Below are positions 9,504 to 51,901 of a stretch of DNA of 64,000 bases, one piece after another; positions within the stretch are counted from its first letter, which is position 1, and every line of letters begins with the position of its first letter. Under the pieces are notes generated by a model. It did no database searches and was not told where the DNA came from. It was given only the letters and a program-made list of their open reading frames with translations. Source of the stretch: Clostridia bacterium (GTDB lineage: Bacteria > Bacillota > Clostridia > RGIG6154); NCBI GenBank assembly GCA_017409875.1, contig JAFQRW010000011.1, positions 62,001-126,000 on the forward strand, written 5' to 3'. Position numbers and translations under genes: made by a program.

Positions 9504-10556
9504 GTGAACAGCAAAGAATTACTTAATGCGATTGCCATGCTTGAGAAGGAAAAAGGTATTGAAAGAGAGTATATGTTTCAGGCAATCGAGAGTGCGCTTG
9601 CAATAGCGTACAAAAGAAGCATCAAAGGAATTAAAGGTGCAGATTTAGTTGTTGAGCTTAACAGAGAAAATGGAGAAGTAACTTTGTATAAGCACTGCAA
9701 GGTAGTTGAAAATGGATTAGGTCAGGACGGAGAGTACGACTTAGACGAGGCAAAAGAAATTAATGAGGCTTATGAGATTGGCGATGTTGTCGTTGAAGAA
9801 ATAGATCAAACTCCTTTTTCAAGAATTGCGGCACAGACAGCAAAGCAAGTTATGTTGCAAAAACTTCGTGAAGCGGAAAGCGGCAAACTCTATACAGAAT
9901 TCAGAAAGAAAGAAAATACAGTTACTACTGGTATAGTTAAAAGAATTGATAAGAAAAATATTATAGTTGATGTTGGCAATTTTGAGGCAATTATTCCACC
10001 AAGCGAACAAATTGAAGGTGAGAAAATTGAACCGGGTGATAAGATTAAACTTTATGTTGCCAAGGTTAACAAAACTAATTACGGACCTGAAGTTATTGTT
10101 TCAAGAAGCAATGCAGGGATTGTTGGTAAACTTTTTGAAAATGAAGTTCCTGAAATTGGAGAAGGCATTGTTGAAATCAAAGCTATTTCACGCGAACCTG
10201 GCTCCAGAACAAAAATTGCAGTTTATGCAGAAAATTCTAATATCGACCCAATCGGCTCATGTGTTGGTCAGCGAGGAACAAGAGTCCAGAATGTTGTTGA
10301 TGCACTTGGCGGAGAAAAAATTGATATCATTAAATGGAGCGAAGACCCAGCTGAATTCATTCAGGCTGCCTTAAGTCCTGCAAAGGTTATCTCGATTGAT
10401 GTAAATGAAGATGAAAAAATGTGTACGGTTGTAGTTCCTGCTTTTCAGCTTTCACTTGCAATCGGAAGAGAGGGACAGAACGCAAGATTAGCAGCTAAAC
10501 TTACCGGATGGAAAATAGATATCAAAGCGGAAGACAATATTAATTTAGAGTTTTAA
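9504..10556 (+). CDS. nusA: Transcription termination/antitermination factor NusA
   Basis: A 350-residue RNA-polymerase-binding factor controlling pausing, termination and antitermination. Order: N-terminal polymerase-binding domain (residues 1-125), S1 domain (about 135-200, GIVKRIDKKNIIVDVGNFEAIIP), then two KH domains (about 230-345, including DPIGSCVGQRGTRVQNVV and AIGREGQNARLAAKLTGWKI). It lacks the extra acidic C-terminal repeats of proteobacterial NusA, as expected for Firmicutes. The start is GTG, supported by GAGGAGGTAAC upstream. Confidence 0.97.
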   Translation: MNSKELLNAIAMLEKEKGIEREYMFQAIESALAIAYKRSIKGIKGADLVVELNRENGEVTLYKHCKVVENGLGQDGEYDLDEAKEINEAYEIGDVVVEEIDQTPFSRIAAQTAKQVMLQKLREAESGKLYTEFRKKENTVTTGIVKRIDKKNIIVDVGNFEAIIPPSEQIEGEKIEPGDKIKLYVAKVNKTNYGPEVIVSRSNAGIVGKLFENEVPEIGEGIVEIKAISREPGSRTKIAVYAENSNIDPIGSCVGQRGTRVQNVVDALGGEKIDIIKWSEDPAEFIQAALSPAKVISIDVNEDEKMCTVVVPAFQLSLAIGREGQNARLAAKLTGWKIDIKAEDNINLEF

Positions 10557-10566
10557 GGGTAAATTT

Positions 10567-10827
10567 ATGAATGATAAGGTTAATTACAGAACTTGCGTGT
10601 GTTGTAAAAGCTTGAAATATAAGTATGATATGGCAAGAATAGCAGTAGTTGATGGCAAGGTAAGTTGCGATGTAAGCTTTAAGGCTGGAGGACGCGGAAT
10701 GTATATTTGTAGTCTAAAATGTCTTGAAAAGATTTCTTCATCCAAAAAGTTTTCGAAGATTTATAATTTGGTGTCAGATGAAGAAATTCTTAAATCTATA
10801 AAGGAAGTGCTCAAAAATGCAGAATAA
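10567..10827 (+). CDS. rnpM: YlxR-family RNA-binding protein (RNase P modulator)
   Basis: An 86-residue DUF448 protein with the typical RTCVCCKS start and the GRGMYICSLKCLEK motif. Family members in the nusA-infB operon bind RNA, and the Bacillus protein modulates RNase P. Its last 11 bases overlap the following L7Ae-type gene, indicating translational coupling. Confidence 0.9.
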   Translation: MNDKVNYRTCVCCKSLKYKYDMARIAVVDGKVSCDVSFKAGGRGMYICSLKCLEKISSSKKFSKIYNLVSDEEILKSIKEVLKNAE

Positions 10828-48262: not shown

Positions 48263-48280
48263 TGGCACACCCAAAGGGAT
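48263..48280. repeat. Distal attachment-site repeat of the tRNA-Arg island
   Basis: These 18 bases (TGGCACACCCAAAGGGAT) match the 3' end of the tRNA-Arg(CCU) gene at 51825-51842 with a single mismatch, in the same orientation. They cover the CCA end, acceptor strand and part of the T stem: the usual crossover segment for tyrosine integrases that use tRNA 3' ends. Confidence 0.75.
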
Positions 48281-48360
48281 AGTCGGCTGAGCCGTCTCGT
48301 GATTGCCGACCCAAAGGCTTTTGCTTTTCGGTACCCGGCTACGCACCTGAAAACTTAAAA

Positions 48361-48406
48361 GCAAATTAGGGGCGAGCAAATTAGGGACGGAGCAAATTAG
48401 GGACGT
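48361..48406 (+). repeat. Three tandem copies of a 15-16-bp GCAAATTAGGGACG unit
   Basis: Units start at 48361, 48376 and 48392, differing by one or two bases. The last leads directly into the left inverted repeat of the RAYT element; a single inverted, degenerate copy closes the right end near 49265-49277. Confidence 0.85.
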
Positions 48407-48481
48407 GCCTGTTTTTACACGTTTTGTTTGACTATAAATTAAAAATATAGTATAATCCAAATCACAAGGGAGTGAATGATA

Positions 48482-49240
48482 ATGAGCAGACCACCAAGAG
48501 TGTTAAGTGAAACAGGATTATACCATATTATTTTTCGAGGAATTAACCATCAGAATTTATTTGAAGATAACCAAGATTATGAAAAGTTGCTTGAAATAAT
48601 AGAAATAATAAAGAAAGATGAAAAATTTGAAATTTATGCGTATTGCTTAATGACAAACCATGTGCATATGTTTATTAAAGAGCAAAATATGGGGGACATT
48701 AAAAAGATAGTTCATAAAATATTAACCCGTTATGTTGCGTGGTACAATCATAAGTATAAGCGAAGCGGTAGTTTAATAGGAAACAGATATAAAAGTGAGC
48801 CCATTGAAGATGATGTGTATTACTTGTCTTTAATAAGGTACATCCATCAGAATCCTGTTAAAGCTGGGATTGTTAAGTGCATTGATGAATACAAATGGAG
48901 TAGTTATAATGATTATATAAAATTATCTCAAAAGCTTATCAACATAAAATTTGCGTTAGATATGTTGTCTGGGGACAGAAGTCTTGCGCTGGCATTATTT
49001 AAGGAGCTACATAATTTGGTAGAGGAAATTGATTTTTCGATATCCAATACAAAAAAATTATCCGATGAACAGTTACGAAGAAAGATATATAAATTGACAA
49101 AGCTTCAGGGTTATGAAATATCCACAAAGCCAAAGTCTGAAAGAAATGAAGTCCTATCTTTATTACGCCGTAACGGATTTACAATAGGACAATTGGAGAG
49201 GTTAACCGGAATTTCAAGAGGAATAATTAGCAGAACATAA
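48482..49240 (+). CDS. REP-associated tyrosine (Y1) transposase
   Basis: A 252-residue HUH-type nuclease. MSRPPRVLSETGLYHIIFRG is the classic RAYT start. The HUH pair is H60-V-H62 in CLMTNHVHMFI, and the likely catalytic tyrosine is Y120 in LIRYIHQNPVKAG. The C-terminal 60 residues contain a helix-turn-helix (FTIGQLERLTGISRGIISR). ATG 48482 has GGGAG nine bases upstream; an ATG two codons earlier is too close. The gene is intact, so the transposase may still be functional. Confidence 0.9.
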   Translation: MSRPPRVLSETGLYHIIFRGINHQNLFEDNQDYEKLLEIIEIIKKDEKFEIYAYCLMTNHVHMFIKEQNMGDIKKIVHKILTRYVAWYNHKYKRSGSLIGNRYKSEPIEDDVYYLSLIRYIHQNPVKAGIVKCIDEYKWSSYNDYIKLSQKLINIKFALDMLSGDRSLALALFKELHNLVEEIDFSISNTKKLSDEQLRRKIYKLTKLQGYEISTKPKSERNEVLSLLRRNGFTIGQLERLTGISRGIISRT

Positions 49241-49387
49241 AATGTGCAAAAACAGGCACGTCCCTATTTTTATTTGCAATTTATGGCATAGGATGGGGCG
49301 ATGACGCAACACCATTGTATGCGGTTGGTGGCAAAAAAGCTGAAAATGCATATAACAAAATGAAAAAATTTATGGAGGATGAAATTG

Positions 49388-49588
49388 ATGAGTTTGACGG
49401 AAGCAGAGAAAATTTTGAAAGCTGGCTTAACAGTTACCTCGTTACCAAAGGGACAACAAGCGATAATATTTCTGATGATGGAAACAGAAGAGCAAGCGTT
49501 GAAGATGGCTCGATTCATAGCGGACAACAAGCAAGCGACGGAAAAAGAACTGATGGCGGAAGCACAGAAAATAGCAAAGATAACTTGA
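49388..49588 (+). CDS. Small acidic protein, module gene B1
   Basis: 66 residues (MSLTEAEKILKAGL..., then a TEEQALKMARFIADNKQATE segment and a KELMAEAQKIAK tail), probably all-helical. Start ATG lies nine bases after GGAGG of an ATGGAGG box. It overlaps the long frame in another phase, and here the small frame looks the more protein-like. B2 and B3 share its layout. Possible roles are immunity or antitoxin protein, or phage head accessory; none is proven. Confidence 0.6.
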   Translation: MSLTEAEKILKAGLTVTSLPKGQQAIIFLMMETEEQALKMARFIADNKQATEKELMAEAQKIAKIT

Positions 49589-49885
49589 CTGTAAATAATG
49601 AGGGTAATATACCTAATAAAAACAGTTTAAAGACAAAAATTAAGTATTCACCCACAGGGATAAAATTACCATCAAACGAATACGCAAAATTTCATTCAAG
49701 TACAAGCACGGATTATTATAAAGCGTATAAGACACACGAGGGATTACAGTATCAAAGTTGTGTAACCGATGACACTCACATACTTTACATATATGAAGAT
49801 GGTGGATTTGGTAAGTATAATGTTGTAGCAAGAGTTGATTATAAATATGGCGATGTTGCTACTAAGATTATGGAGGTATTAAATA

Positions 49886-50125
49886 ATGAAAAGCATTACC
49901 AAATTACAGGAGTCGTTAACTATATACTTGAAACATTTGAAGTTAGACGAAGCGGCTATACTGTTTATAATACTTACACTAAAAAGCGAATCAGCTCAAG
50001 AGGCGATGGTACTTTATTTGAGGGAACACAAGAATCCCACGCAGGAAGAGTTGATGCAAGCAGCAGTGGAATTTCAGGAAATAAGCGAGAAGCTGGGGTT
50101 AACGGAAACACAGACAGAGGAGTAA
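49886..50125 (+). CDS. Small acidic protein, module gene B2
   Basis: 79 residues: MKSITKLQESLTIYLKHLKL, then AILFIILTLKSESAQEAM and the conserved-looking NPTQEELMQAAVEFQEISEK tail ending TEE. ATGGAGG with a nine-base gap precedes the ATG. The 'hydrophobic core - x - EEAxx - N(P/Q)(T/A)xEELM' pattern aligns with B1 and B3. It overlaps the composite frame by another phase. Confidence 0.6.
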   Translation: MKSITKLQESLTIYLKHLKLDEAAILFIILTLKSESAQEAMVLYLREHKNPTQEELMQAAVEFQEISEKLGLTETQTEE

Positions 50126-50401
50126 ACGAGAATGCAAGTTATTCGTTGAAACAGTGGCACACGGGGTTAAGCAAACCACGAGCTGTAATGGTTGAAAATT
50201 GGATTCGCCGTGCTGGTAGTCCAGAAAGCAAGAGAATTGCCAAGGATACTTATTGGTATAGCGGCAGACTTGACGGAAGAGATTTGCTTGTCTTATATAG
50301 CACAGAGAATGCCGACAGCCCTACTATTTTATATTTGGCACGCGGGAAAAAAGCAAAAGTAGAATTAAATTCATTGTTAAATTATATGGAGGATTTTGAA
50401 A

Positions 50402-50638
50402 GTGGAAAGAGAAAACGTTTTGTCAGAAAATCGGAGATTGCTGATAAGGTACTTGGCGGAGATTGGTTGCAAAAGAAGCACAGTATGGCACATAACAATG
50501 ATAGATCTGGAAAGCGAGGAAGCAATACTGGATATGCTTCAGTTTTGCAAGGAAAATCATCCAAACTTATCGGAAGCCCAGCTTTTAGAAATGTCATCGA
50601 AGATTGCTTTAGAATACAAGAAAGAGACGGAGGAGTAA
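50402..50638 (+). CDS. Small acidic protein, module gene B3
   Basis: 78 residues starting at GTG, again nine bases after the GGAGG of ATGGAGG (a TTG two codons earlier is also in frame). VWHITMIDLESEEAILDMLQ and NHPNLSEAQLLEMSSKIALE align with B1 and B2, and the end TEE is shared with B2. A GGAGGAGTAA at its stop could serve as SD for the following phage frame. Confidence 0.58.
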   Translation: MERENVLSENRRLLIRYLAEIGCKRSTVWHITMIDLESEEAILDMLQFCKENHPNLSEAQLLEMSSKIALEYKKETEE

Positions 50639-51697
50639 ATAAAAATCATTCCCTCAAAGGTGGCATACAAAATCCATCAAAGTGGACAAAGGAGTTTCTT
50701 GACACTATTGAAGATGTGAGAGACGGTAAAAAGAATGCTGAAAGCAGACTTTACAAGTATGTTGAAGATGGAACATTAAGCACTAAAGATTATGATGAAT
50801 TGATAGAAAAGTATGGTGCTATCCCAAGTGGTGAAAGACCACACAGAGAGGTGCAGGTTCCACGAAAAACAGCAGACGGGAAAAAGGTATCACAGACAGT
50901 ACGCACAATTCTTGAAGCGAAGGCAACACCTGATGAGGCTGTACCTACTATTGAGAAGATGGTAGAAGATGGCATTTTTTCTTATGATGCCTATACGGAC
51001 AAGCAGGCAATAAAAGATGCCGAAGATTATCTTAAAGAGTACGGATGGGAGAAAAGTTATAAAAATTGGTTTAATGATGTAGAAAAGGGTATAGTGTCCA
51101 AGCAACATACTGCAATGGGATGGGCGCTATACAACAATGCAGCAAATACTGTTGAGGCATCAACATCAGAAAGTGAGAGAAAAACAGCAGTTCGGACCTC
51201 TCTTGAAATTTTAGATGCAATGGCAAAACATCAGCGAAGTGCCGCACAAGCATTGCAGGCTACACGAATACTCAAAAAGCTCTCACCTGAAACTCAATTA
51301 TACGGAGTGCAAAAAAGTGTGCAGGCGTTACAAAAGGAATTGATTGACAGGTACGGAAACAGAGCACCAGACCTTAAAATTGATGAAGTGCTTGCGGCAG
51401 AGTTTTTAAATGCGGGAACAGAGGATGAAAGACTGGCAGCAGAAATAGAAATTTACAGGGACATAGGCAGACAGGTACCATCCGATTGGCTGGATAAGTG
51501 GAACGCGGCCAGATATATTGCGATGCTTGCAAACCTGCGTACTCACGGCAGAAACATTTTGGGCAATGCGTTTTTTGCTCCTGTTGTTATTGCAAAGAAT
51601 TTAACTGCTACTGCTATAGAGGCAGCTGTTTATCGAATTTCGGGTAAAAAAGTTTCTTGATATCCTTGAAAAATTTACAAAAATCAATGACATGCAG

Positions 51698-51824: not shown

Positions 51825-51842
51825 TGGCGCACCCAAAGGGAT
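51825..51842. repeat. tRNA-proximal attachment-site repeat
   Basis: TGGCGCACCCAAAGGGAT, the 3' end of tRNA-Arg(CCU), repeated with one mismatch at 48263-48280. GGACAAATAA-C-GGACAAA direct repeats lie nearby at about 51740-51760 and could be integrase arm sites. Confidence 0.75.
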
Positions 51843-51901
51843 TCGAACCCCCGACCTGCGGTTTAGGAAACCGTCGCTCTATCCTGCTGAGCTATGGATG
51901 C
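51825..51901 (-). tRNA. tRNA-Arg (anticodon CCU), CCA encoded
   Basis: A 77-nt cloverleaf on the minus strand: acceptor GCATCCA/TGGGTGC, D arm GCTC/GAGC, anticodon loop TTCCTAA with CCU, and T loop TTCGAAT. The anticodon stem has one A-C mismatch at its base and the T stem has two G-U pairs. The 3' CCA is encoded. It decodes the rare AGG codon, and its 3' end is the integration site of the island. Confidence 0.93.

Follow-up and report, generated by a model that had tools for sequence, protein, structure and literature searches.

In Rhs and CdiA polymorphic toxin loci, displaced toxin tips are separate gene fragments. The locus described here resembles such toxin-tip/immunity arrays in that cassettes of a variable domain and a small partner stand in tandem, but its domains stay in one open frame which reads through each partner gene. 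In the MuF polymorphic toxins of temperate phages, a toxin domain is followed by a small ORF that has been proposed as an immunity gene (Jamet et al. 2017, PMC5576092). The order of a phage-encoded domain and a small candidate partner ORF is the same here; however, the small ORF of the MuF systems lies downstream of the toxin gene end, whereas here it is nested in a continuing frame and there are several per protein. The MuF domain had no match in the intact relative L002/L010 at E≤0.01. The polyvalent proteins that Iyer et al. (2017, PMC5512222) defined in phages and conjugative elements are likewise giant, multidomain and encoded in the virion gene region, and the relatives studied here share their ART-PolyVal and metallopeptidase-like parts. 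Unlike the proteins of that study, in which the word "overlap" and the phrase "immunity protein" do not occur, the effector modules here carry nested out-of-frame partner genes. In overprinted genes of viruses and bacteria (reviewed in PMC8227390), too, one piece of DNA encodes two proteins in different frames, whereas here overprinting is reiterated along one gene, with one partner per effector module and a conserved ribosome-binding site. We found no report in the open-access literature of out-of-frame partner genes nested in polyvalent-type proteins.

The window (the whole 64,000-nt stretch of Clostridia DNA that was analysed) contains a polyvalent frame on the plus strand at 49231..51660, with 809 open codons from stop to stop (open to 51657) or 781 codons counted from the first TTG. 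It aligns with residues 1383-2088 of the intact 2756-aa protein of viral contig L010 (61% identity over 726 aligned residues). The window copy is not intact. Its N-terminus is lost, and the truncated end of the frame adjoins an upstream IS200/REP-type Y1 transposase gene (48476..49240, plus strand; 254 aa; Pfam Y1_Tnp, E=1.4e-15). The conserved C-terminal part (50641..51660, plus strand; 90% identity to L010 and 70% to the related phage L011) is broken off at 51660, near a tRNA-Arg (CCT) gene identified by ARAGORN on the minus strand at 51825..51901. Part of the 3' end of this tRNA is repeated at 48263..48280 (no strand assigned; 17 of 18 bases), where it forms an att-like left border, and this copy pairs as repeat family D9 with 51825-51842 inside the tRNA gene, which is the probable attachment site and right border of the remnant. 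Judged from these sequence features, the locus is a decayed phage-derived element beside an attachment site in a gut-type bacterium, and it is best explained as what is left of a temperate phage's giant polyvalent protein, a multi-effector, virion-associated product. The source genome (1.46 Mb, 98% complete) holds no second copy of the locus. Upstream of the transposase gene, at 48360-48408, an 18-nt repeat, AGCAAATTAGGG, is present three times in tandem.

Three small ORFs are nested in the +1 frame of the polyvalent gene, all on the plus strand: B1 (49388..49588, 66 codons), B2 (49886..50125, 79 codons) and B3 (50402..50638, 78 codons, GTG start). Their GGAGG ribosome-binding sites lie at 49374..49378, 49872..49876 and 50388..50392. 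As an earlier, sequence-only reading of this DNA had noticed, each start is exactly 9 nt past its GGAGG at a spacing of about 500 bp (498 and 516 bp), and the SLK-type junctions that it saw at the module starts are there. That reading also held that the three genes share layout and motifs, and this similarity proved to be statistical homology. A profile built from B3 relatives and run on all ORFs of the collected loci recovered B2 (E=1e-4) and B1 (E=3e-4), and the three are thus paralogues. Of the small partners, which had been described as acidic, B2 and B3 are so (net charge -6 each), whereas B1 (0) and the first L010 copy (+2) are not.

Each B gene follows a segment of the polyvalent frame that we call A. 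A3 (50137..50400, plus strand; beginning SLKQWHTGL) has relatives in L010 (two copies), L013, L014, L015 and L147, each followed by a nested partner. A1 (49270..49387, plus strand) is a C-terminal piece of an A3-type domain, matching A3 profile positions 50-86 (i-E=5e-4), and the A1/B1 pair is a fragment only. The segments before B1 and B3 are thus of one domain type. B2 is preceded by another type, A2 (49597..49990, plus strand), whose conserved end, EVRRxGYxVYNT, overlaps the first B2 codons. The A2/B2 pair is kept in remnant L206, with 62% identity to the window in A2 and 53% in B2. Opposite each B gene the A frame encodes a hydrophilic linker and, for B2, also the conserved A2 end.

The intact relatives show how these segments are arranged in a complete gene. 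The 2756-aa protein of L002/L010 contains the domains A3, A2-like and A3, and behind each of its two A3 domains stands a B3 gene in the +1 frame with the layout GGAGG-N9-ATG, while the long frame runs uninterrupted through both. Intact relatives have the long frame as a single unbroken protein of 2233-3640 aa that reads through the small genes. The small genes are therefore nested (overprinted), and the suggestion that the modules are merely displaced fragments of a broken gene is not supported. The neighbourhood is that of a phage virion region. Both L010 and L011 have a gene for an internal virion protein (phrog_511; E about 1e-59 for L010) upstream of the polyvalent gene, and in L011 an integrase gene lies behind the polyvalent gene. 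An assignment as phage head genes with accessories, also considered in the sequence-only reading, is near the mark, given that intact relatives stand behind this virion protein gene. L010 is a very long protein with at least two effector-type domains, as a polyvalent protein should be. PF18760 (ART-PolyVal) was detected in L002 and L085; the match in the L010 protein (E=3e-5) is below Pfam's cut-off, and that in L085 has E=3e-41.

Searches with the A3 profile found the A3/B3 pair in distant Clostridia genomes (L013, L014 and L015, of which L013 and L015 are goat gut MAGs) and in viral contig L147, where the contig end truncates the A3 domain. Weak A3 matches in L016 and L023 were judged unrelated. 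The earlier proposal to look for the same pairs behind large proteins in relatives was thus borne out in L010, L013, L014, L015 and L147, and tandem cassettes of a variable domain and a small partner in a decayed phage-derived locus are what the pairs in an intact phage protein and other genomes bear out. Neither a lack of homologues nor a conserved long frame devoid of small genes, the two outcomes named beforehand as contrary, was seen; the long frame is conserved and the small genes are nested in it. A genome-wide search with the B3 DNA pattern returned only the contigs of L013 and L015, both known before, and tblastn of B2, the C-terminal part of the polyvalent frame and V (a second nested family, below) against phage records matched nothing.

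We examined whether both frames of the overlaps are under constraint. Within the A3 domain, comparison of the window with L010 copy 1 at A-frame codon positions 1/2/3 gave 31/21/44, the third positions being most variable. In the B3 overlap the same comparison gave 25/16/10; here A third positions are the least variable and B third positions the most. Fisher tests of this codon-position switch gave P=0.004 (window and L010 copy 1), P=0.003 (window and L013) and P=3e-5 (L010 copy 1 and L013), with P<0.05 in six of six pairs. The same switch was seen between the window and L206 for A2/B2 (23/18/49 in A2 upstream, 29/17/43 in B2). The A frame is preserved as well. When B codons were redrawn synonymously and A-frame stops counted for nine module partners (from the window, L010 and three genomes), 3.5-7.6 stops were expected per gene and none was seen, although the per-gene probabilities cannot simply be multiplied because the nine copies are related. 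Domains downstream of the B genes are always in the A frame. Dual coding of the overlap, with both frames constrained, is thus well supported by the sequence comparisons.

Since all the small frames are shifted by +1 against A, we considered whether ribosomal frameshifting from the A frame could produce A-B fusion proteins. Every core copy, however, has an SD and a start codon, the spacing is exactly 9 in the eight core copies, and variable A codons spell out the ribosome-binding site before the start. Frameshifting as a route to B is scarcely credible, and we rejected it on the conservation of the SD and start.

Nested SD-led ORFs could also arise by chance, in which case the polyvalent frame alone would be translated and the +1 ORFs would be by-products. 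Taken together, nested SD ORFs are as many in polyvalent genes as the null predicts (36 vs 38), which agrees with this explanation. We then counted protein-like ORFs, namely nested ORFs in the +1 frame with at least 50 codons, an SD and at least 12% acidic residues, in polyvalent gene sets drawn by two motifs (LSERF and ART) independent of the nested genes, with synonymous-codon shuffles as the null. The LSERF-motif set, which takes in L130, an L010 relative with two nested ORFs, contained 8 against 0.3 expected (maximum of 2 in 60 shuffles). The independent ART-motif set contained 4 against 0.1 expected (shuffle maximum 1), and none was present in 146 other long frames from these loci, where 0.7 were expected. 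As the acidic filter was picked after the first list was seen, it is the ART-motif set and the control frames that carry the weight. Protein-like nested ORFs are therefore more than 25-fold over the null, with none in other genes; moreover, substitutions in the overlap track the B codon, and B folds confidently in prediction. A chance origin is the least probable of the explanations considered, and the B1-B3-type genes are very probably real, dual-coded genes.

The nested genes comprise at least two unrelated families. Family B occurs in the window, L010, L013-L015, L147, L148, L180 and others. Family V ("NGxxVRIPxxKxxxW" proteins) occurs in L044, L055, L074, L102, L108, L125 and L170, in the linker before the metallopeptidase region of other polyvalent proteins; one example is the nested +1 ORF on the minus strand of L108 at 10454-10666. 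As V precedes the metallopeptidase region and does not lie behind an A2/A3-type domain, some nested genes may be something other than antidotes. Polyvalent genes with additional SD-led +1 ORFs nested in them, for which no family was detected, occur in L085 (3995-4207, plus strand) and on the minus strands of L060 (8848-9039), L080 (2106-2297) and L143 (6290-6463). A junction string, D-I-R-[YF]-S, recurs after ART-type domains in polyvalent proteins of L026-L184 (IRYS 78 vs 1.6 expected) and could be a processing or linker signal; a general processing motif, "[YFHW]SL", was rejected, being only mildly enriched (178 vs 137).

A function of B independent of the adjacent domain (e.g. anti-defence or host takeover), with B hitch-hiking in polyvalent linkers, would fit the location of the unrelated family V in a different linker. 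B-like small genes also stand alone outside polyvalent frames in Clostridia genomes (L192/L210 and L196/L212), and these are possibly domesticated partners. Nevertheless, the partner type tracks the domain type: B3-type is always behind A3-type (seven pairs, with the A3 of L147 truncated) and B2-type behind A2-type (two pairs). The cassette is also present or absent as a unit. L011, although its C-terminal flank is 70% identical, lacks the A2/A3 module as well as any nested gene, so that domain and partner are gained or lost as one cassette. An unlinked function of B is improbable.

The small gene lies directly behind an A2/A3-type domain, as it would in a toxin-immunity cassette. Neither A2 nor A3 matched a known toxin family in Pfam and other sequence searches, and A and B sequences had no credible match in Pfam, PHROGs, NCBIfam or PDB. 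An AF2 model of the L010 B3 relative, from an alignment of five sequences only, is a four-helix protein (pLDDT 87.7). Foldseek with this model found no match in the PDB and one promising viral match, A0A8S5NB41, an uncharacterised phage protein of 64 aa (TM 0.78/0.88, E=0.06). The A3 model (helix, four strands, helix) is of low confidence (pLDDT about 50), and that of the A2-A3 stretch is too poor for use (pLDDT 36.8).

Small helical proteins which are specific to the preceding module and made with a virion protein could also be adaptors or chaperones for packaging or solubility, keeping the domain unfolded or bringing the polyprotein into the head, and the charge of B, which is not consistently acidic, fits such a role. 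Most domains of polyvalent proteins, however, lack a gene of this kind; the ART and metallopeptidase domains of the same proteins have no partner of their own. A chaperone would also be of little use once its domain is gone, yet B is intact in domain-less remnants. Among 391 genomes of the class searched for family B, 18 gave a match. Remnants L206, L207 and L208 have A-frame stops within the overlap and an intact B, while L189, L207 and L208 have lost the A3 domain itself and kept B. No case of the reverse, with an A3 domain present and B broken, turned up. By sequence, then, B is a gene that survives as an orphan after domain loss, with the reservation that this rests on three or four loci and that B is short. 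A chaperone or adaptor role is rather unlikely, though less so than an unlinked function.

We slightly favour the interpretation that A1-A3 have their cognate immunity (antitoxin) proteins in B1-B3, and a toxin/immunity nature of the modules is plausible. We infer that B is translated in vivo, that A2 and A3 are toxic, and that B binds and neutralises them. The effector modules would be cassettes of an effector domain and then a small partner gene, which starts with its own Shine-Dalgarno sequence inside the last helix codons of the effector domain. The stretch of the partner gene serves the polyvalent frame as the linker to the next module. Internal initiation on the shared mRNA would yield B each time the producing cell makes the polyprotein, and B would bind the effector domain. 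Because B would have no covalent link to the injected protein, the recipient would receive the effector without the antidote. An array of effector-immunity cassettes would account for the cognate pairs, for co-translation, for the survival of orphans and for the gain and loss of cassettes. More tentatively, we propose as a general feature of phage polyvalent proteins one overprinted cognate antidote per effector module, which would double as a linker, be inseparable from its effector by recombination and always be made with it, while the effector alone is injected.

Gene callers usually miss nested genes of the B kind, which are covered by no family in Pfam, PHROG or NCBIfam. The orphan B copies suggest that bacteria may retain the partners as protection. 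If confirmed, these data would mean that phage effector proteins hide partner genes within their own coding sequence, and they would provide a natural case of repeated overprinting along one gene. Nested partners would then flag the toxic ones among unknown domains and explain how the producing cell tolerates them.
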